Assembly (NCBI RefSeq): GCF_008693185.1
Contig: NZ_VXKN01000002.1
Span: 124,001-188,000, forward strand
DNA length: 64,000 bases
Reading direction: 5' to 3'
DNA from: Acinetobacter qingfengensis
GTDB lineage: Bacteria > Pseudomonadota > Gammaproteobacteria > Pseudomonadales > Moraxellaceae
Position numbers and translations under genes: made by a program. Below are positions 1 through 57,230 of the stretch, piece by piece. Within the stretch, counting starts at the first letter, position 1. Every line of letters starts with the position of its first letter. The notes below the pieces were generated by a model that saw nothing but the letters and a program-made list of their open reading frames with translations, had not been told where the DNA came from and made no database searches.

Positions 1-588
1 AGAACCAATCACACCTTCAACCACTTTACCTTGCTTATAATTTGATTTAGCTTTGACAGCAGCAGCTAAGAGTACCGGATCAGCCTGAAAACGCAAATGA
101 CGGCTTTCTTCTTCAGGTGTTGCATTTTTTGGTAAGACATTAAAAGATTTATTCCATGTCAAACTATTAGAACCCTCACCCAATGCTTTCTTAGGTGTAA
201 TAAAAGCACCAATATTTTCAGATTCCTTACCAATTACAATATCAAAAACTTTTAATTGAGGATCATGTCCACCAGATGTTCCCTGATTAATAATTGCCGC
301 AGGTCGATAATGTTCTATCGCTAATACAGTTGCTGCTGCGGAATTACTCATTCCCATGAGTGTTCGTGAAATAACAATTGGATAACCTTTATATGTACCT
401 TGCCAAAATTTCCAGCCCCCATAAGTTTTTATACTGACATTTTCCAATTGCTGAATCATATGATCAGTTTCAATGTCCAAGGCTCCCTGAATTACAACAG
501 GCGCTTGTTGCGGTGCAGCAATAGTATGTGTTGCCCACAATGTGACTGTGACAATAGCTGTATTTTTTAGTACACTTTTTAGCATCAT
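1..588 (-). CDS. Exported nucleosidase-family protein (PNP/UDP phosphorylase superfamily), 3' end outside window
   Basis: The frame is open from an ATG at 588 to the window edge, giving 196 codons of N-terminal and central sequence. A GAGGAAA ribosome site lies about 6 nt upstream. The protein begins with a Sec-type signal peptide (cleavage likely near THTIAA). It then shows the phosphorylase-superfamily segment INQGTSGGHDPQLKVFDIVI, the glycine-rich turn and strand that bind the nucleoside. The same segment occurs as FSGIAGSLNPELHVGDVVIA in the lipoprotein at 1997-3055, so the two look like distant paralogues. It is divergent from the Tsx channel gene, with 362 bp between them. Inferred role: cleavage of nucleosides or methylthioadenosine-like compounds in the periplasm. 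The catalytic Asp lies beyond the window, so activity cannot be judged. Confidence 0.8.
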   Translation of the reverse strand, partial: MMLKSVLKNTAIVTVTLWATHTIAAPQQAPVVIQGALDIETDHMIQQLENVSIKTYGGWKFWQGTYKGYPIVISRTLMGMSNSAAATVLAIEHYRPAAIINQGTSGGHDPQLKVFDIVIGKESENIGAFITPKKALGEGSNSLTWNKSFNVLPKNATPEEESRHLRFQADPVLLAAAVKAKSNYKQGKVVEGVIGS

Positions 589-950
589 TACATTTCCTCA
601 TTAAAAATTGGCTAAAATATCAAAGAATAATCAATATTATGCATCAAAAAATAGCAATAATTTTTGCTTGCAAATTTATTTGATTACATATCGATTTAAA
701 TAAAAAAATCTATCACCCTCTCAAAGCAATTTTAATGCCTTAAATAACTTTTAAGATAAATTATTCAGGTCAAATGCTTTAAATAAAATCAATTGGCAAA
801 GCATCAAAACAATAAAATTCGATTTTTATAATTTTCAATATATACTTCCCAAAATGTTAAAATAGGTATGAAAATTGCTTAATTTTGATTTACTCATGTT
901 ATTAATTATGAATAACTTCGTTTAATCTTCTAAATAAGGATATTCCTTTT
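589..950. other. Divergent intergenic region between nucleosidase and tsx
   Basis: This is 362 bp of very AT-rich DNA without a credible ORF. It must hold the promoters of both flanking genes. The only promoter-like match I can place is upstream of tsx (885-912). No clear inverted-repeat operator is visible. Confidence 0.6.
885..912 (+). promoter_or_regulatory. Candidate sigma70 promoter of tsx
   Basis: TTGATT at 885-890 and TATGAA at 907-912 are 16 bp apart, about 40 bp upstream of the tsx start codon. The background is AT-rich, so this is a weak prediction. Confidence 0.35.
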
Positions 951-1814
951 ATGCTAGCGAAATCTTTAATCTGTACATTTACTGCTCTTGCCACACTTGG
1001 TGGTGTACAACAAGCCAGTGCTGAAGTTGGAACGACTTTATGGGGGATTTATAGTAACAACGTTATGTTTAGCCCAAAGCCCGTTGAAAATGCCTATCTT
1101 GAACTTGAATACTATGGTCAAAAAGGGCCTTTCGATTTATATGGATATTTTGATGCTCCAAAATATTTTGGTGGTAATGATAATATTCAAGGTGTTTGGG
1201 ATAAAGATAGCTCAAAACTTTTCATGGAACATGAACCAAAATTGTCATTTAATCGCTTAACTGGCAAAGATTTATCTATTGGACCATTTAAAGACTGGTT
1301 TATTGCTGCTGACTGGATTCTTGATGCAGGAAATACCGTAACTTCTCGCCAAAATACTTTATATTATGGCGTAGGTACAACCATTGATACGCATAGTAAA
1401 CTAACAGTTAATGTAAATGTATATGCAAAACAACAATGGGAAAATTATGGTGCCGCAAATGCATACACTTCAGATGATGGTGGTCGCTTACAAGTACAAT
1501 TTTTCTATCCGATCATGACTTTAAATAATGGTGCATCCATTAATTACTTCTCATTTTCCAATTATGATTTTGGTTCTGATTTATCCAGCAAAACAGATGC
1601 TATTTCAACGTATAAAAATACCCGTACCGATGAAGCTTTTGTTTCAACTCATATTTTTTCATATAATATGAAACATTTAAGAGCCTATGCTGCCGGTCGT
1701 TACTTCCATAATGGCGGTCAGTTTAAAAATGGTGCAACCAATAACTGGGGTACAGAATTTAATCAAAAAAGTAATGGCTGGGCTTATTATTTAGGTTTAG
1801 GTTATCAATTCTAA
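951..1814 (+). CDS. tsx: Tsx/OmpK-family nucleoside-specific outer-membrane channel
   Basis: The product is 287 residues with a signal peptide cleaved after QASA (about residue 24) and a C-terminal Phe typical of outer-membrane barrels. The segment around residues 45-60 (YLELEYYGQKGPFDLYGY) matches the strongly conserved start of the Tsx/OmpK family. Alternating aromatic residues run through the rest, as expected for a 12-strand barrel. AAGGA lies upstream of the ATG. Family role: diffusion of nucleosides through the outer membrane. Exported nucleosidase-family genes on both sides support a nucleoside-uptake role for this copy. Confidence 0.88.
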   Translation: MLAKSLICTFTALATLGGVQQASAEVGTTLWGIYSNNVMFSPKPVENAYLELEYYGQKGPFDLYGYFDAPKYFGGNDNIQGVWDKDSSKLFMEHEPKLSFNRLTGKDLSIGPFKDWFIAADWILDAGNTVTSRQNTLYYGVGTTIDTHSKLTVNVNVYAKQQWENYGAANAYTSDDGGRLQVQFFYPIMTLNNGASINYFSFSNYDFGSDLSSKTDAISTYKNTRTDEAFVSTHIFSYNMKHLRAYAAGRYFHNGGQFKNGATNNWGTEFNQKSNGWAYYLGLGYQF

Positions 1815-1996
1815 ACAATATCAATCTAATATCATGGTGTATAAGCATCATTTTATATGCTGCGCTTTAAATGTATCTTTAAAGCAGCAGTTATTGATTG
1901 TAGTTTATTCATTTTACATGATGAATTGATTTTGAAATATATTTTGCTTTTTAAATGGTTATTTTTAATGATAACTTTTTTGGAGAATCTTCTATC

Positions 1997-3055
1997 ATGC
2001 GTTTACTCAAACTCTCAGTTATTATTGGTGCAGTTACTTGTGCCATGGGGCTCGTTGGTTGTGCAACATCAACCAAACTTAATCAATCACAGCCTACTGT
2101 TGCACCAGCATCGGTTAATTATCTGACTGACGCCAATCCTCGTCTTGGAATCATTGCAGCATTTGGGCAAGAAGCCGATCTATTGCTTGAATCAACATCA
2201 GATAAAAAAGAATATTTTATTAAAGGTCGTAAGTTTGTGACAGGTACCTTACAAGGTGCGCCCGTTGTGATTACACTTAGTGGGATTAGCATGACCAACG
2301 CAGCCATGACCACTCAATTAATGATTGATCATTTTCAATTAACCGGATTAGTATTTAGTGGAATTGCAGGAAGTTTAAACCCTGAGCTTCATGTAGGTGA
2401 TGTAGTCATTGCAAAAAGCTGGATTGCACCTAACGAAGTTTATTATGCCAATAAAACCCAACTACCTGCCGCATGTGGTACACCAGGTGATGTTTCCTGC
2501 TTAGGTTTAGCCTTGGATAATAAAATTCCACCCTATGCTGCACAATTTTTTCGTCAAACCAATGTAATGAATGCAAGTAATTACAACAAAGTTGCCTTAA
2601 CAACAAAAATTGCGGACCAAAATATTCCAGTTGCATTTGGTGAAATGAAAACAGATTTCCCCGTTGATGAAAAAATGTGGAATATTGCCAATAAAGTACA
2701 AGCTCAAACCCAAAATAGCTTAGAGCCAATTTGTGCAAGTAAGCAAAAATGCTATCAGCCCAAGATTGTTATGGGTAAACGAGGTGTATCTGGCGGTGCT
2801 TTTTTAGCCAATATTGAATATCGTAATTATCTACATCAGTATATGCAAGGTGATAGTGTAGATATGGAAACTGCAGCCGTAGCGCAAGTGGCTTATTCCA
2901 ATGAAATTCCATATATTGCTTTCCGTAGTTTATCTGATCTTGCAGGAGCAGATCATGATCCAAATGTAGGCGCTTTCTTTGGTTCAGGTGTCGCGCAGCG
3001 CAATGCTGCGAAATTAACCATGGCATTTATAAAAGAATGGAATACTGAAAAATAA
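1997..3055 (+). CDS. Lipoprotein MTA/SAH nucleosidase-like phosphorylase-superfamily enzyme
   Basis: I chose the ATG at 1997 because it has GGAG upstream and starts a lipoprotein signal with the lipobox LVGC (Cys22). An in-frame ATG 14 codons earlier would spoil the signal. The mature protein (352 aa with signal) has the MTA/SAH nucleosidase fold: GIIAAFGQEADLL at the start, then FSGIAGSLNPELHVGDVVIA, then VDMETAAVAQVAY. RSLSDLAG near the C-terminus carries the Ser-Asp pair that supplies the catalytic Asp in MTAN. Cytosolic MTAN is about 230 aa; here about 100 extra residues with several Cys (AACGTPGDVSCLG, PICASKQKCY) lie inside the fold and may form disulphides in the envelope. Its position right after tsx suggests hydrolysis of nucleosides near the outer membrane. 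The exact substrate is not readable from sequence. Confidence 0.8.
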   Translation: MRLLKLSVIIGAVTCAMGLVGCATSTKLNQSQPTVAPASVNYLTDANPRLGIIAAFGQEADLLLESTSDKKEYFIKGRKFVTGTLQGAPVVITLSGISMTNAAMTTQLMIDHFQLTGLVFSGIAGSLNPELHVGDVVIAKSWIAPNEVYYANKTQLPAACGTPGDVSCLGLALDNKIPPYAAQFFRQTNVMNASNYNKVALTTKIADQNIPVAFGEMKTDFPVDEKMWNIANKVQAQTQNSLEPICASKQKCYQPKIVMGKRGVSGGAFLANIEYRNYLHQYMQGDSVDMETAAVAQVAYSNEIPYIAFRSLSDLAGADHDPNVGAFFGSGVAQRNAAKLTMAFIKEWNTEK

Positions 3056-8701: not shown

Positions 8702-9400
8702 TTATTTTTTTTCAGGATAATTATAATCTCCCCATTTGCTGGTTTTGATACCCAATCCGTGTAAGGCTTCAATTAATTTTACCGCAGCAGTTACACCATC
8801 GATCACCGGAATGTCTATTTCTGTGGCAATACGTTCGGCAAGTTTTGCCATACCACCACAGCCAAGCACAATTGCACCAATCTCATCTTGTTGTTTTGCA
8901 GCCAGACAGTTTTCCAATAGTTTTTGATAAGTTTGCTGTTCGTTGTTTTCCAGATCCAGAACTGGCAAGTCAATACAACGAATTTTTGCACATTTATGTA
9001 CAAAACCGTATTGATGTAAAAGATGTTCAGCAATAATTTTAGTACGGCTCAGTGTGGTGACAATTGAGAATTTGGTCGAAACCAATGTCGCCATGTGAAA
9101 AGCAGCTTCTGCAATCCCAATCACAGGTGCATTAGCGACTTCGCGTGCAGCATGCAAAGCTGGATCACCAAAACAGGCGATCACATGACCATCAACACCT
9201 TGCTCACGTCCCTGTTGCACCAGTTTTAATATGCCTAAGGCAGAAATGGCTTCATCATAATGACCTTCTATCGACGGCACACCCTGCTCTGGAGACACCG
9301 CGATAATTTCTGTATTCTCTGCCGAAACTTTTTCTGCACTTTTCCCGATGGAAACAGTCATTGCTAAAGACGTATTTGGATTAATCACTTGTATACGCAT
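8702..9400 (-). CDS. Hydantoin/allantoin racemase-type Asp/Glu racemase-superfamily enzyme
   Basis: The ATG at 9400 begins MRIQVINPNTS, the family signature, with GGAAAA upstream; an upstream TTG gives no better start. At 232 aa it has the usual length. The two catalytic cysteines are Cys76 (VIACFGDP) and Cys181 (VLGCGGMA), the same positions as in characterised hydantoin racemases. The family racemises 5-substituted hydantoins or allantoin without a cofactor. An NCS1 permease and a GntR regulator lie upstream, but no hydantoinase, allantoinase or carbamoylase is present here. The substrate is therefore open. Confidence 0.83.
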   Translation of the reverse strand: MRIQVINPNTSLAMTVSIGKSAEKVSAENTEIIAVSPEQGVPSIEGHYDEAISALGILKLVQQGREQGVDGHVIACFGDPALHAAREVANAPVIGIAEAAFHMATLVSTKFSIVTTLSRTKIIAEHLLHQYGFVHKCAKIRCIDLPVLDLENNEQQTYQKLLENCLAAKQQDEIGAIVLGCGGMAKLAERIATEIDIPVIDGVTAAVKLIEALHGLGIKTSKWGDYNYPEKK

Positions 9401-9633
9401 ATTTAAATTTTCCAACAATTATGTATAGCCCAAAGTAAATAAACTATTTTTATCTCTGGTTTTAGCTTAAATAAAACAGCTTTTTTGATACTAAACTCAA
9501 TCTAATACTTATTTCACATTTTCAAAAACAGCCAACTACTGCTGCAATACAACATTGTCACAATAGTGTTCATAGACTCTCTTGAATACGTACACAGCTG
9601 ACTTAAATGTGATATCTATATATTGAGAATTTT

Positions 9634-9667
9634 AGCCTGTCAAAAGAATCATATTTTTTGGCAGGCT
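9634..9667 (-). terminator. Terminator of the NCS1 permease gene
   Basis: AGCCTGTCAAAA (9634-9645) and TTTTGGCAGGCT (9656-9667) pair over 12 bp with one wobble, 13 bp past the permease stop. It separates the permease transcript from the racemase gene. Confidence 0.6.
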
Positions 9668-9680
9668 GTTTGCTTCCGCA

Positions 9681-11114
9681 CTATTTTTTTCTCATTAATA
9701 CAATATAAATCACAAAACCAAGTCCCATCCCGATAAACCATGAAAAGTTTGCCATTATAGACAATTGTGGAATCAATACCCCCATAATTGGGATCAATGC
9801 AGCAGGAATCAAAGTATAAATGGCTTTTTTATTATATCCATTTTCATACCAATAACTGCCTTTAGGATTCATACTATATAAATCATCTACAACAATTTTT
9901 TGCTTCTTCACTACATAAAAATCTGCCAGCAAGATACCAAATAAAGGACCAATCAAAGCACCCAGAATATCAATGGTGTAATGAATCACTTGCGGATTAT
10001 TAAATAAATTCCAAGGTGTGATAAAGATAGAACCGATCGCAGCAATCATGCCGCCTGTACGCCAGCTAATTCTATTGGGTGCAACATTAGAAAAATCAAA
10101 TGCAGGAGAAACAAAGTTTGCCACGATATTAATGCCGACTGTTGCAATCATTAACGTTAAACTACCCAAAATCACTACAGCGGTATTGTCCAGTTTACCC
10201 ACCATTTCAACCGGATCGGTAATCAGTTGTCCATAAATTGGTAAGGTTGCAGCAATACACACAACAGTAAGAATAGAGAAAAATAAAAAGTTAATCGGTA
10301 AACCAAGAAAATTACCAAATTTTACTGCTTCAAAAGACCTGCCATAACGAGAGAAATCGCCAAAATTTAACATTGGACCAGAAAAATAAGAAACTATCAG
10401 TGCAATTGCACCAATCATGACTGGTACGACTTCCAATCCTTGATATTTTACTCCTGACAAATTAAAATCAATATTGCTCCAACCTGCTTCATAAATTAAC
10501 CAAACAGCCATGGCAAACATAACTACATATACAGCAGGCCCTGCCCAGTCAATGAATTTACGAATACCCTCCATGCCCTTCCAGAAAACTATTGCCTGTA
10601 ATACCCACATCAGCATAAAACCGATCCAGCCCAGATAAGACAAACCAAGCAAGCCATATTGGTTCACATCAGCATATCTGCTATATTCCGGAAAAAACTT
10701 GAGAATGACCAATAAAAAGGCACTTGAAGCCAAATAAGTTTGAATTCCATACCATGCCACTGCAATAAGTCCACGGATAACCGCAGGAATATTTGCCCCT
10801 TGTACACCAAACGTAGCACGACAAATGACAGGAAATGGTGCACTGGTTTGTTGACTGGATTTGGCAATTAAATTGGTAAAGAACTGTACAATTACAATGC
10901 CAGCTAACAAAGAAATTAATACCTGCCAACTATTTAAACCTAATGCAAACAAACTACCCGCAGTGACATACCCACCGACACTGTGTACATCCGACATCCA
11001 GAAAGCAAAAATATTGTACGATCCCCAAGTCTGTTTTTTCAATGGTGCCAAATCACTATTGGTTAACTTCGGATCATAAGAAGGTTTAATCACAGCTTCT
11101 GATTCATTCATCAT
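9681..11114 (-). CDS. NCS1-family nucleobase/hydantoin/allantoin:cation symporter
   Basis: The 477-aa protein has about 12 membrane segments. The NCS1 opening motif is present (LKKQTWGSYNIFAFWMSDVH, residues 27-46), as is AVAWYGIQTYLASSAF in TM3, where the Mhp1 substrate-site Trp and Gln lie. NCS1 carriers move uracil, cytosine, allantoin, hydantoins or thiamine-like compounds with H+ or Na+. The racemase next door favours hydantoin or allantoin. Two ATG codons open the frame (11114 and 11111), with a weak ribosome site. Regulation is probably by the divergent GntR protein through sites at 11316-11350. Confidence 0.85.
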   Translation of the reverse strand: MMNESEAVIKPSYDPKLTNSDLAPLKKQTWGSYNIFAFWMSDVHSVGGYVTAGSLFALGLNSWQVLISLLAGIVIVQFFTNLIAKSSQQTSAPFPVICRATFGVQGANIPAVIRGLIAVAWYGIQTYLASSAFLLVILKFFPEYSRYADVNQYGLLGLSYLGWIGFMLMWVLQAIVFWKGMEGIRKFIDWAGPAVYVVMFAMAVWLIYEAGWSNIDFNLSGVKYQGLEVVPVMIGAIALIVSYFSGPMLNFGDFSRYGRSFEAVKFGNFLGLPINFLFFSILTVVCIAATLPIYGQLITDPVEMVGKLDNTAVVILGSLTLMIATVGINIVANFVSPAFDFSNVAPNRISWRTGGMIAAIGSIFITPWNLFNNPQVIHYTIDILGALIGPLFGILLADFYVVKKQKIVVDDLYSMNPKGSYWYENGYNKKAIYTLIPAALIPIMGVLIPQLSIMANFSWFIGMGLGFVIYIVLMRKK

Positions 11115-11627
11115 ACGAATAACTCACTGTTTTTTAACTCTAATTCATGACTTACAAAAGAAGTCTCTTTATCCAAGATGTCATTTACTGTGGTATTAAA
11201 ATTGATATGACCGGTAATTTTACAAATTAAGAATATATCTAATAAAAGCAACTGATTTTGTACAAACATAATTTTATCCCAAAGTGTTTTCAGCTTATAG
11301 TTGAATTAACTACATATTGTTGACAATACATAATGAAAATTGTGTACAATATTATTTAAGCAAAAAAGATGCCATAAAAATAAAATGATTCCTCTGGAAG
11401 AAATTTTTATAAAATATTTTAGATCTTTTAAATTTCTTAACTTTTTGATGTGCAATACATTTAGCAGTTTTAAATTATTACAATTCATAGTGATAAATGA
11501 TTAAGCGATAAGCAAAAATGACTGGCAGTAAATAAAAAAATATTCCAGAATTATCATATAAATTGCTGTATGTATTTGTCTCCTTTGCCATATCATCCAG
11601 TGCAAAATTTTTATTATGGAGAATGTA
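11115..11627. other. Long divergent regulatory region, NCS1 permease / GntR
   Basis: These 513 bp carry no credible gene. Two matching inverted repeats (11316-11327, 11339-11350) and the palindrome TTTGTACAAA (11257-11266) lie on the permease side. The rest is AT-rich. Confidence 0.6.
11316..11350. promoter_or_regulatory. Paired GntR/FCD operators
   Basis: ATTGT-TG-ACAAT (11316-11327) and ATTGT-GT-ACAAT (11339-11350) are two copies of the same inverted repeat, centred 23 bp apart. The NTTGT-NN-ACAAN form is typical of FCD-type GntR regulators, and the divergent gene encodes one. Confidence 0.68.
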
Positions 11628-22353: not shown

Positions 22354-23694
22354 TTACTGTTGAAACTGGTATACAGAACCCAGATTCAAAATTTTGGTTA
22401 ATTCATCCAGCGCTGTTCGACTTTCCAATAATAATTGTGGATCTGCTAAATCCTGTTGCGATAATCTATCCCGATAATATTGATCAACCCATTGATTCAA
22501 AATATGAAAAAGTGTATCAGTTAACAATATTGCTGGATTCATAGCCTGTAATTCTTGTTGATTAACTGCAACTCTAAGACGTAAACAGGCTGGCCCCCCC
22601 CCATTTTGCATACTTTCACGTAAATCAAAGACTTTGATCTCATCAATTGGATAACCCATGCTGATCATGTCATTCAGGTATGACCATACTGCGCTATGAT
22701 TACGGGCTTCTTCCGGTACAACAATGGTCATTTTGCCATTGGATCGTGTAAGTATCTGACTATTAAATAGATAAGTCTGTACTGCATCCTGAACACTGAC
22801 ACGATTTGCAGGAACTTCAATCGCAATTAAATCTTCATTGAGTAGTAGCATTTTTTCACGTAATTGTTGCAATGCCTGTTGTTGGTCTAAAAAAGCATGT
22901 TGATGATGAAACAAAACTTGCTGATTACTTACTGCAATTACGTCATTATGAAATACCCCCTGATCTATGACATCAGGATTTTGTTGAATAAAAACAGTAT
23001 ATTTTTCATCCAGACCATGTAGGCGGGCAATGGCATGACTAGCTTCCAGTGTTTGTCTGGCTGGATATTTTTTAGGTGCTTGTCTGGTTCCTAGATACTG
23101 TTGTCCATAAACGAACATCTGTACACTGCGCTGATCATAGTACCCTCCCAGACGATTATGGTTTGCAGCCCCTTCATCTCCAAACATGCTTACTGAGGGT
23201 AACGCCTGATGATGTACAAAATACTGTGGATCAGCAAACATGGCAGCCAGAATGCGACTAGTGGTTGTATGTTCAATAGAACGATGAAACTTATTATTCA
23301 AATTGGCTGCGGTAAAATGTAGTCGTCCATCCCGACTGTCCGCAGATGGTGATACTGTACATGAATTGGCTGTCCACATACTGGAAGCAGAACTTAAGTT
23401 TGACAACAGTTGTGGTGAAGTCTTCATGGCTTGTGTAATCACTTCATGATCGGATCCTATAAAGCCAAGTTGACGTAATGTAGCAATGTGTGGACGATCC
23501 TGTGGTGCAAATACTGCCTGTTTTAATCCCAGATCTGCCAATGCTTTCATTTTTGCCAAACCTTGTCTGGCAGCCAGTTTTGGATTTGAGATATGACTGC
23601 GATTTTTTGTTGAAGCCTCATTCCCAAAAGATAAACCTGCATAATGATGTGTTGGCCCAACCAGACCATCAATATTGATTTCATATCCTGACAT
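22354..23694 (-). CDS. astB: N-succinylarginine dihydrolase
   Basis: Hydrolyses succinylarginine to succinylornithine, CO2 and ammonia. The 446-aa guanidino-modifying enzyme starts [20 protein letters not shown], the AstB signature, with AAGAG well placed for the ATG at 23694 (another ATG lies 6 bases earlier). The catalytic Cys region is [12 protein letters not shown]. The three glycines there are encoded by nine consecutive G (22594-22602), an unusual homopolymer for this AT-rich genome. Confidence 0.94.
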
Positions 23695-23718
23695 TGTCAT
23701 TTCTCTTAATCATTAAAT

Positions 23719-26225
<2,507 letters not shown>

Positions 26226-26231
26226 GATGAA

Positions 26232-27452
26232 CTATTCCTGATTCTCGATGAATTGCACCATCGCCTGTTCAAAACGCTGCAAGCCTTCATCTATATCCGC
26301 AAATGGAATGATTAATGAAGGGGTAAAGCGAATCACATTGGCACCAGCAATCAGCCCCAGCAAACCATGTTGTTGTGATAACTTATTTAGCCTAGCTGCC
26401 TGTCCGGCATAGCATTGCTGTAGGACGCAGCCTAATAACAAACCTGCTCCACGGATTTCACTAAATATTTGATACCGTTGATTTAGTAAATTCAGTGCCG
26501 TTTTAAAGTATTCAAATCTAGCCTCAACACCTTGTAGAACTGCTGCTGTATTGATATGCGAAAAAACCGCACTCCCTACTGCACCTGCAAGAGCATTACC
26601 ACCATAGGTCGTCCCATGATCTCCAACCGAAAATGCGCAGGCATATTCATCCGTAGTGAGCATGGCTCCTATTGGAAAACCACCACCCAATGCTTTGGCT
26701 GTGGTTAAAATATCTGGAAGTACGCCTGTATTCATGTAAGCATATAAACGACCTGTCCGACCAACACCTGTCTGAACTTCATCAAAGATCAATACTGCGC
26801 CTGTCTGATCACACAGATGTCTTAATCCTTGTAGAAATTCAACATTGGCAGGGATCACGCCCCCCTCTCCCTGTATCGGTTCAACAATCACGGCACAGGT
26901 ATGTTCATTGATTACAGATTTAGCTGCATCCAGATCGTTATAGGCAACGTGGGTAATCCCTGAAGGTAATGGTGCATAATCCTGTGAGTATTTCGCTTGT
27001 CCTCCTACCGATACAGTAAATAGGGTTCGGCCATGAAAGGCATTATTAAAGGCGACTATCTGGTTTTTTCCTGCAACACCACTGTTTAAACCAATTTTTC
27101 TGGCCAGTTTCAAGGCAGCTTCATTGGCTTCTACTCCGGAATTACAGAAGAAAGCCTTATCTGCAAAGGTGCTTTCCACCAGTTGTTTGGCAAGGTTTAA
27201 AATAGGTTCATTGGTATAGCCATTACCAATATGCCAGAGCGTCTGTGCCTGTGTCGTCAAGGCATTCACTGCTACAGGATGTGCATGCCCTAAAGCATTA
27301 ACAGCAATACCCCCTGCAAAATCAATATATTCTCGTCCTTGTTGATCCCAGAGTCTTGAACCTTTGCCTTTAACAGGAATAAATTGTGCTGGTGCAAAAA
27401 CCGGCACCATATATTGCTCAAAATCCTGACGGGTTATTAATTCATTTGACAT
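26232..27452 (-). CDS. astC: Succinylornithine transaminase
   Basis: PLP class-III aminotransferase converting succinylornithine to succinylglutamate semialdehyde; it may also act on acetylornithine. I used the ATG at 27452 ([11 protein letters not shown]), matching the family start; upstream in-frame codons add an unsupported leader. Motifs in the 406-aa protein: [47 protein letters not shown] and [15 protein letters not shown] with the PLP lysine. It is the first gene of the operon astC-A-D-B-E and is divergent from an Lrp/AsnC regulator. Confidence 0.93.
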
Positions 27453-27525
27453 ACTAATCTTCATTCCCCAACTAAAGTGATATCCATTTGTACTGACCAC
27501 ACGATATAGACTTATTATTAAAAAA

Positions 27526-55343: not shown

Positions 55344-57230
55344 ATGAAATATTCAGCTTTGATTCAATGCTCTACATTATCTGCATCAATTTTAGCGTTT
55401 AGTGGTTGTTCTACAACTCCGATAAGTTTATCAAAAACCGTATCACAAGATAGTAATCAGGTTGTAGATATCATTGCTTTTAATGACTTTCATGGAAATA
55501 TTGAACCACCTAAACGTTGGATAATAGCACCTAAACCGTTATATCCTAATGAACATAACCAAAGCATAAAAACCATTGAAAATCAAAATCTTGCTAAAAA
55601 ATATAAAAACTCAACTGAAGAAATTATTACACAAAACTCAACAAAGAAAAATGAATCTGAAAATATTAACGTACCCGCAGGAGGTGTAACTTACTTGGCC
55701 GATGCTATTCAAAAATTACGAGTACAAAATCCTAATAATATTGTGGTTTCAGCAGGAGATTTAATTGGTGCATCCCCACTTATATCCTCTTATTTTTTAG
55801 ATGAACCAACAATCGATGTCATGAATGACATTCATATTGATTTAAATGCGGTTGGTAATCATGAATTTGATCGAGATATTCATGAATTGCAACGTAAGCA
55901 AAATGGTGGTTGTCAGCAATTTACCACGACAAAACCTTGTCAGATTAATAAAAATTTTATGGGAGCACAATTTAATTTTTTGGCAGCAAATGTCACAATG
56001 AAAAAAGAAAATCATCGCACCATTTTTCCAGCCTATAAAATAAAAAAATTTGGTGGTATTCCTGTAGCCTTTATCGGTTTAACATTAAAAGGTACACCTG
56101 ATATTGTATCCATGCCTTTAAATGAGAATTTAGATTTTCATGATGAAGCAAAAACAATAAATGCTTTAATTCCTGAGCTAAAAAAACAAGGGATTGAAGC
56201 CATTGTCGTTGTTATCCATGAAGGTGTATCTCCAAGTACAAAATTAAATGAAAAAACGTGTAAAGGTTTAAGCGGGCCACTTTTAAATATTTTAGAACAA
56301 TTAAATCCTGCTATTGACATTGTCATTTCCGGACACACGCATCAATCATATATTTGTGATTATTCAACAGTTAACCCAGCAAAACCATTTTTACTTACAT
56401 CGGCTGGACAATATGGTATGTTAGTAACTGATATTCGTATTGAATTAGATGCAAAAACTAAAGATATTATTAAAAAAGATGCAAAACAGATTATCGTACA
56501 AGGCGAAGGATTCTCAACCAACACCACTACACTCAATACCACACCATTATATGAAAAATTTAATAAAACACCTAGTGTGGAAGCTATTTTAAAGCCTTAT
56601 CGTCAAGCCATTGCAGATATTTCTAACCAAATTATTGGTCGTGCAATATCAAATATTGAAAGAATAGAAGTTAAAAGTGGAGAAAGTCCTTTAGGTAATT
56701 TGATTGCAGATGCACAACAAGCAAGCGCCAAAAAAGCTAATAAATTAGGTTCTGATTTTGCCTTAATGAACTCAGGTGGCGTACGTGCACAATTACAAAT
56801 GAACAAACAAAATGAAATTAACTATGGTAATTTATTTTCGATCCAACCATTTGAAAATCCTGTTGTCACTTTAAGTTTAACAGGAAAACAAATAAAAGCT
56901 TTGCTGGAACAGCAATGGTCTGATCACAATCCTTCAGAAGCAAATATCCTGTACCCATCTCAAGAATTAAGCTATCAATACAGTATACATAAACCACTCT
57001 TGTCCAAAGTCAGTAATATTAAAATATCTGGCATTCCACTAGATGAAAACAAGATTTATCGTGTCACTGCAAATAAATTTCTTGCAGAAGGTGGAAATAA
57101 TTTCTCTATTTTTAAACAAGGTCAGGATCGTGTTGAATCTGGCTTGGATATCGATGCCTTAGTCAATTATATCAAGGCCAATTCACCAATTTCAGCACCC
57201 AAAACAACTCGTATTAAAGTTATAGATTGA
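55344..57230 (+). CDS. UshA-like 5'-nucleotidase/metallophosphatase lipoprotein
   Basis: AGGGGGA precedes the ATG. The signal ends in AFSGC (Cys22), so the protein is probably lipidated. The metallophosphatase domain has IIAFNDFHGNI, VVSAGDLIGASPL, AVGNHEFDRD and VISGHTHQSY, the full di-metal set. A 5'-nucleotidase C-terminal domain follows with GNLIADAQQ, ALMNSGGVRAQL and SIQPFENPVVTL. Family role: hydrolysis of external nucleotides (UDP-sugars, AMP) to nucleosides and phosphate. A low-complexity insertion (about residues 60-105) follows the first motif. Together with the Tsx channel and exported nucleosidases at 0-3 kb it would form an envelope nucleotide-scavenging route. Confidence 0.87.
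   Translation: MKYSALIQCSTLSASILAFSGCSTTPISLSKTVSQDSNQVVDIIAFNDFHGNIEPPKRWIIAPKPLYPNEHNQSIKTIENQNLAKKYKNSTEEIITQNSTKKNESENINVPAGGVTYLADAIQKLRVQNPNNIVVSAGDLIGASPLISSYFLDEPTIDVMNDIHIDLNAVGNHEFDRDIHELQRKQNGGCQQFTTTKPCQINKNFMGAQFNFLAANVTMKKENHRTIFPAYKIKKFGGIPVAFIGLTLKGTPDIVSMPLNENLDFHDEAKTINALIPELKKQGIEAIVVVIHEGVSPSTKLNEKTCKGLSGPLLNILEQLNPAIDIVISGHTHQSYICDYSTVNPAKPFLLTSAGQYGMLVTDIRIELDAKTKDIIKKDAKQIIVQGEGFSTNTTTLNTTPLYEKFNKTPSVEAILKPYRQAIADISNQIIGRAISNIERIEVKSGESPLGNLIADAQQASAKKANKLGSDFALMNSGGVRAQLQMNKQNEINYGNLFSIQPFENPVVTLSLTGKQIKALLEQQWSDHNPSEANILYPSQELSYQYSIHKPLLSKVSNIKISGIPLDENKIYRVTANKFLAEGGNNFSIFKQGQDRVESGLDIDALVNYIKANSPISAPKTTRIKVID

Follow-up and report, generated by a model that had tools for sequence, protein, structure and literature searches.

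A cluster of three genes in Acinetobacter qingfengensis, in which tsx, encoding an outer-membrane nucleoside channel, stands between the genes of two exported proteins related to 5'-methylthioadenosine/S-adenosylhomocysteine (MTA/SAH) nucleosidase (MTAN), is best explained, with rather better than even confidence, as a nitrogen-controlled unit for scavenging purine nucleosides, which would be cut in the envelope so that the bases are imported. The cluster lies at the start of a stretch of 64,000 nucleotides, referred to here as the window (contig NZ_VXKN01000002.1, positions 124,001 to 188,000). In the proposed mechanism, nucleosides would cross the outer membrane through Tsx and be split in the periplasm, where the secreted left-hand and the lipid-anchored right-hand enzyme would hydrolyse the N-glycosidic bond. 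Nucleobase permeases would then take up the adenine or hypoxanthine released, which would be deaminated and degraded for nitrogen. Both tsx and the divergent nucleosidase gene would be transcribed from sigma-54-type promoters, so that either a lack of nitrogen or an activator that senses purines would turn the unit on. We infer the catalysis, substrates, expression, regulation and nucleoside-to-base flow of this mechanism from the genes, their export signals and linkage, the conserved promoter-like sites and the catalytic residues, save for one Asp that is replaced by Asn in the left-hand protein.

The left-hand gene (A-type, the label used for its family) occupies positions 1–588 on the minus strand and runs 246 bases past the window start; 196 residues fall inside the window, and the open reading frame (ORF) completed from the genome (G000; 3.15 Mb, completeness 99.99) encodes 277 aa. 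It is divergent from tsx (951–1814, plus strand; 287 aa with a signal peptide), downstream of which lies the gene of the right-hand lipoprotein (B-type; 1997–3055, plus strand), with an ORF listed from 1955 and a lipoprotein start (MRLL...GLVGC) that fits 1997, giving 352 aa. A third label, C-type, denotes the other Asp-type family of exported MTAN-like proteins. Protein A matches PF01048 with 141.6 bits (cut-off 25.1) and protein B with 142.8 bits. The tsx product matches the Pfam model Channel_Tsx (PF03502; 217.9 bits, cut-off 27.2) and exceeds the cut-off of the NCBIfam Tsx model NF011686 (344.6 bits, cut-off 311), which makes it a true Tsx of the same subfamily as that of Escherichia coli. 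By eye, protein A begins with a plain Sec-type signal (...THTIAA-PQQ) and protein B with a lipobox (LVGC), the Cys22 of which is found in 6/6 aligned B-type proteins. A profile search of the whole genome returned A and B as its only PF01048 genes, both with export signals and with no cytosolic member, so a PF01048 match should not be read as a cytosolic MTAN here. The profile scores, completed ORFs and N-termini confirm the claim of a first-pass annotation of the window that a Tsx channel lies between two exported proteins of this family, and the outline given there was largely right.

The closest solved relative of protein A was the periplasmic MTAN of Aeromonas hydrophila (222 bits; 81 for the next different protein). 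A structural model of an A-type protein, the Acinetobacter baretiae orthologue (predicted local distance difference test score, pLDDT, 75.6), matched MTAN structures and has the NP-I fold, aligning with the Aeromonas hydrophila structure over 227 residues (Z 34.1, root-mean-square deviation 2.2). Residues E40 and E222 were invariant in 15/15 aligned A-type rows and match Glu12 and Glu174 of E. coli MTAN, which we take to be catalytic. Asn245 aligns with the catalytic Asp197 of the E. coli enzyme, and Asn was found at this position in all 45 A-type proteins examined. Protein A therefore has the PF01048/NP-I fold and the two Glu of an MTA/SAH nucleosidase and lacks its Asp, and it resembles the Aeromonas hydrophila periplasmic type in similarity, in Asn at the same aligned position and in an export signal seen by eye. 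That relative (PDB 5b7g, 5b7n, 5b7p, 5b7q) is named a periplasmic MTA/SAH nucleosidase in its entry title, which also mentions functional analysis (Xu et al. 2017, as cited in PMC6302742), and the passages seen of PMC6302742 describe one cytoplasmic MTA nucleosidase plus a periplasmic counterpart in Aeromonas hydrophila. The first-pass annotation had regarded a missing catalytic Asp in the left-hand protein as grounds for giving up its reading; the Asp is indeed missing, yet this is not decisive, since the solved Aeromonas hydrophila protein has the same Asn and is titled a nucleosidase. For the same reason, the Asn was no longer taken as proof that the enzyme is dead. It is likely, judging from these alignments, that the left-hand protein is an exported nucleosidase, making two of them.

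In protein B, Glu59, Glu291 and Asp314 were invariant in 11/11 aligned B- and C-type proteins. The same 11 rows share Cys246 and Cys252, and the insert of the B-type proteins carries Cys160 and Cys168 in 6/6; disulphides formed by these cysteines would fit an envelope protein. The lipobox and the insert with conserved Cys pairs bear out the description of an exported MTAN-like lipoprotein with extra residues and extra Cys. An AlphaFold model of protein B from nine sequences was poor (mean pLDDT 50.5). Compared with cytosolic MTAN (E. coli MtnN; PDB 1jys, 1nc3), A and B share both Glu positions and B also the Asp; A shares the fold, and B probably does so too. In contrast to that enzyme, both are exported, A has Asn at the position of Asp197 and B has ~100 extra residues with conserved Cys pairs. 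A distant gammaproteobacterium (G278) has, between hisE-like and tatA-like genes, a gene (L078:7930-8859) for a C-type protein that is MTAN-like and carries a signal peptide; the Asp-type exported family thus extends beyond Acinetobacter.

The linkage with tsx is conserved among relatives, as the first-pass annotation had supposed. In a sample of 99 genomes of the genus, Tsx above 200 bits was found in seven, and a PF01048 gene lay ~0.3 to 3.0 kb from it in all seven. A scan of named genomes with a Tsx alignment returned 12 loci, ten from Acinetobacter and two from Paraburkholderia, and an A-type gene lay within 3 kb of tsx in 10/10 of the Acinetobacter loci. Six of these ten belong to genomes of the 99-genome sample; with the window's genome, 11 genomes are covered, and an A-type gene is within 3 kb of tsx in all 11 Acinetobacter genomes with a true Tsx examined. 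An Asp-type exported enzyme also stands beside tsx in 9/11, namely B in the window and C in eight others. In eight of the ten named Acinetobacter loci, the genes for A and C share a strand and tsx runs divergently; in Acinetobacter baylyi and Acinetobacter soli, tsx is ~2.8 kb from A, past apbC, and only A is near tsx. The gene order A-tsx-B was found in the window alone, none of the other ten genomes having it. The B-type gene of five relatives is on a contig other than that of tsx, within ~240 bases of the contig end. A 5S rRNA was found at that end in 2/5 (L039 1-81, L042 5-119; none at the ends of L040, L041 and L043), and B is therefore probably beside an rRNA operon in those relatives. 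A class-wide sample of 274 genomes from 222 genera (A-type cut-off E <= 1e-40, B/C-type E <= 1e-35) gave Tsx above 200 bits in two genomes (G000 and G370) and a single weak match besides (E <= 1e-20), A-type proteins in the window's genome only and B/C-type proteins in G000, G244 and G278; the linkage test was uninformative at this level because the genome sample is spread thinly.

The tsx upstream regions of 11 species, when aligned, contained a conserved block inside a region of 31% mean column identity. In 10/11 the block resembles a sigma-54 promoter (GG-N10-GC) and lies 79–109 nt 5' of the tsx ATG; in the window it is the 16-mer AGGTATGAAAATTGCT (864–879, plus strand), 87 nt 5' of the ATG. 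A second site of this form, AGGCATTAAAATTGCT (725–740, minus strand), precedes the A-type gene. Sites were scored with a scheme of our own (maximum 21; counted at 18 or above) that includes the TGGCA...TTGC context and is built on what we take to be the sigma-54 consensus. On this score, both the tsx and the A-type sites have the promoter form, with GG and GC ten apart in a conserved place. A score of at least 18 within 150 nt upstream was found for 24 of 27 stand-alone A-type genes and, in a background set of 105 genes, for one (Fisher p 5e-22, uncorrected for relatedness, with many of the 27 being close relatives), and for 14/5,400 base-shuffled upstream regions. The 27 exclude genes directly behind C (L034, L035, L037, L038), the signal-less L046–L048, the genes L049, L052, L057 and L103–L110, and L055, an A. 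soli duplicate of L036; the three misses were L016, L028 and the A-type gene of the window, whose site is at -152. Within 250 nt, sites were present for 26/33 A-type genes (two of them, L035 and L038, with the site inside C), 9/11 tsx genes and 6/8 C-type genes. The A. soli tsx scored 0 from an ORF start upstream of the likely ATG, and the 250-nt count uses the later ATG. Scans for sigma-70 promoters and terminators showed no excess over shuffled sequence.

Similar sites occur at genes of purine uptake and breakdown in the same genome, although these permease and UraD genes were chosen for inspection after the sites had been seen. Two of its five Xan_ur_permease genes have strong sites upstream (20.5 and 19.5), the one with 20.5 being followed by a gene named adenosine deaminase, and a third is preceded by a UraD gene whose site scores 19.5. 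The NCS1 permease gene of the window (9681–11114) has a site of 19.5 ~260 nt upstream. A Moraxellaceae comparative study describes NtrC control of gdhA and gltBD, and tsx is unmentioned in its main text as seen (PMC5343134). In another genome of the genus (G007, L098:383-3499), the gene of a weak Tsx-like protein (241 aa) neighbours those of a xanthine permease and UraD, and the Tsx-like and UraD genes each have a sigma-54-type site; on this arrangement the protein is a candidate second outer-membrane channel tied to purine catabolism.

The metabolic setting in the window's genome is consistent with import of bases rather than nucleosides. The genome has five Xan_ur_permease nucleobase permeases and an SAH hydrolase, and no match was found to CNT, Nuc_H_symport or IU_nuc_hydro, other importer families and enzymes being outside this search. 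A 5'-nucleotidase-family lipoprotein encoded at 55344–57230 (plus strand), unlinked to the cluster, has Metallophos and 5_nucleotid_C domains and, by eye, the lipobox FSGC, in agreement with its first-pass identification as a lipoprotein 5'-nucleotidase. It may be an upstream step, in which case nucleotides would be taken to nucleosides and then to bases. Four other genomes, those of Acinetobacter apis, Acinetobacter rathckeae, Acinetobacter sp. HY1485 and Acinetobacter boissieri (G020, G026, G050 and G098), had no match to SAH hydrolase (PF05221), and their PF01048 matches are A, B and C only, all with export signals. A known cytosolic S-adenosylhomocysteine enzyme was thus not found in these four, within a search that did not extend to LuxS or other routes.

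The cellular address of the A-type proteins differs between genomes with and without a true Tsx. A lipobox of the type II secretion system (T2SS) type, with Cys followed by a D/E/N/G-rich stretch, was found in 29/34 A-type proteins from genus-sample genomes without a true Tsx (of the other five, one is a different lipoprotein and four have no lipobox) and in 0/11 from genomes with one (Fisher p 4e-7, uncorrected for relatedness); the pattern misses the ...TASC of Acinetobacter puyangensis, which leaves the contrast unaffected. On the A-type tree the tsx label needs three changes of state, and p values without phylogeny overstate the case because well supported branches force only one. The window's protein A has no lipobox, does not qualify as a T2SS-exported lipoprotein and should be soluble in the periplasm. 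In two genomes without a true Tsx (G007 and G085), the mature A-type N-terminus is CNDDNSSV, the same as that of the 'Nucleosidase' lipoprotein of Acinetobacter baumannii (D1G37_RS10930 / RE180_14235), which is listed among verified or putative T2SS substrates (Table 1, PMC12802150). According to PMC9245377, the protein whose identification differed most between A. baumannii wild-type and gspD-mutant supernatants was one annotated as an MTA/SAH nucleosidase, and we infer that it and the listed lipoprotein are one protein. In view of the A. hydrophila enzyme and this supernatant protein, the first-pass description of exported MTANs as unusual was too strong, while its export signals, family assignment and tsx linkage held.

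Judged by its signals, the A-type enzyme thus seems to be on the surface in genomes that lack a true Tsx and periplasmic in those that have one. Weaker Tsx-like proteins are found in nearly all genomes without a true Tsx, and these may also pass nucleosides. We tentatively suggest that the address of the enzyme is tuned to envelope permeability (surface via T2SS without the channel, periplasm with a true Tsx), with both forms in a sigma-54 purine-nitrogen regulon in which nucleosides are split outside the inner membrane and the base alone is taken in. Four A-type proteins (L046, L047, L048 and L106, from G092, G055, G015 and G095) have no lipobox or clear export signal and seem, on that basis, to be cytosolic; three of the four were scored for sites, and none reached 18.

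A different role is conceivable for the same genes, with A and B as strict nucleosidases of MTA, SAH and 5'-deoxyadenosine that act outside the cytosol to remove or salvage sulphur or signalling nucleosides, and with Tsx serving the uptake of these nucleosides. This agrees with the title given to the closest solved relative of A and with the model scores, in that both proteins pass TIGR01704 for MTA/SAH nucleosidase (87.5 bits for A and 79.1 for B, cut-off 73.8) and have an MTA/SAH nucleosidase as their best NCBIfam model. Both are, however, under the cut-off of 169 for NF004079 (107 and 137.7 bits), and the presence of such sites at purine permease and UraD genes too favours nitrogen supply, although MTA as an adenine source would still be compatible. 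We consider a strict MTA/SAH role unlikely. A division of substrates is less plausible again, in which the Asp-type B or C would cut 6-aminopurine nucleosides and the Asn-type A 6-oxopurine nucleosides (inosine and guanosine), so that all purines are covered. It would account for the Asn in 45/45 A-type and Asp in 11/11 B- and C-type proteins and for one of each by tsx in 9/11 genomes, and in trimeric purine nucleoside phosphorylase Asn at the catalytic position goes with 6-oxopurines. Set against it are the Asn-type Aeromonas protein, which is called an MTA/SAH nucleosidase and so would act on a 6-aminopurine, and the two species with only A near tsx. It is very improbable that nucleoside cutting falls to B (or C) alone, with a catalytically dead left-hand protein that serves in binding or storage; the Asn at the Asp position would fit, as would the titles of PDB entries 1z5o and 4p54, in which Asp-to-Asn mutants of cytosolic MTAN were deposited with MTA, but both Glu are invariant in 15/15 rows, and the solved relative that shares this Asn bears a title naming it a nucleosidase and mentioning functional analysis.

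Several observations weigh against nitrogen-controlled scavenging as the function of the cluster. The Asn of protein A matches the 1z5o and 4p54 mutants, so its action on MTA could be slow or absent. The genome has one YfiH (PF02578). YfiH is a possible cytosolic nucleoside splitter. A CNT importer and IU_nuc_hydro are present in five of the six other tsx genomes (G014 has neither), and a cytosolic route therefore coexists there. With regard to linkage, the two Paraburkholderia loci have a true Tsx with an A-type neighbour in neither flank set, and G370, of the same order and with a true Tsx, had no A-, B- or C-type match at the cut-offs used. With regard to regulation, the A. apis tsx has no sigma-54-type site, and B-type genes have a site within 250 nt in only 1/6. 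In the window, the site of tsx scores 17.5, the weakest of the ten found; that of A (18.5) sits 152 nt from the start codon; and B has none within 250 nt, though it may be read through from tsx. Three of the five permease genes have no site of 18 or above directly upstream.

Elsewhere in the window, positions 8702–11114 encode an Asp/Glu/hydantoin racemase and the NCS1 cytosine/purine/allantoin permease, and a site of the sigma-54 type lies on the minus strand at 11359; these two genes are possibly part of the same nitrogen regulon. The translations of genes at 22354–27500 resemble the arginine succinyltransferase (ast) pathway, another nitrogen-scavenging set. An Rfam scan of the window gave 0 matches at the gathering score, and a plasmid comparison returned a single short Nostoc match and nothing else.

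The components of the cluster are of known kinds, exported MTANs included. What seem to be new are the tsx linkage, the likely sigma-54 control and the change of address; no description of the tsx–nucleosidase cluster, its sigma-54 control or the address change was found in the literature searched, in which subscription papers were thinly covered. Relative to the Aeromonas hydrophila enzyme as described, the neighbourhood of which was outside the comparison, protein A differs in its tsx linkage and sigma-54-type sites. Relative to E. coli tsx, that of the window adjoins exported nucleosidase genes and has a sigma-54-type site upstream. If correct, the interpretation would give a nitrogen-scavenging role to the MTA/SAH nucleosidase of PMC9245377, link that enzyme's family with an outer-membrane channel and provide a simple case of one enzyme changing address as envelope permeability changes.

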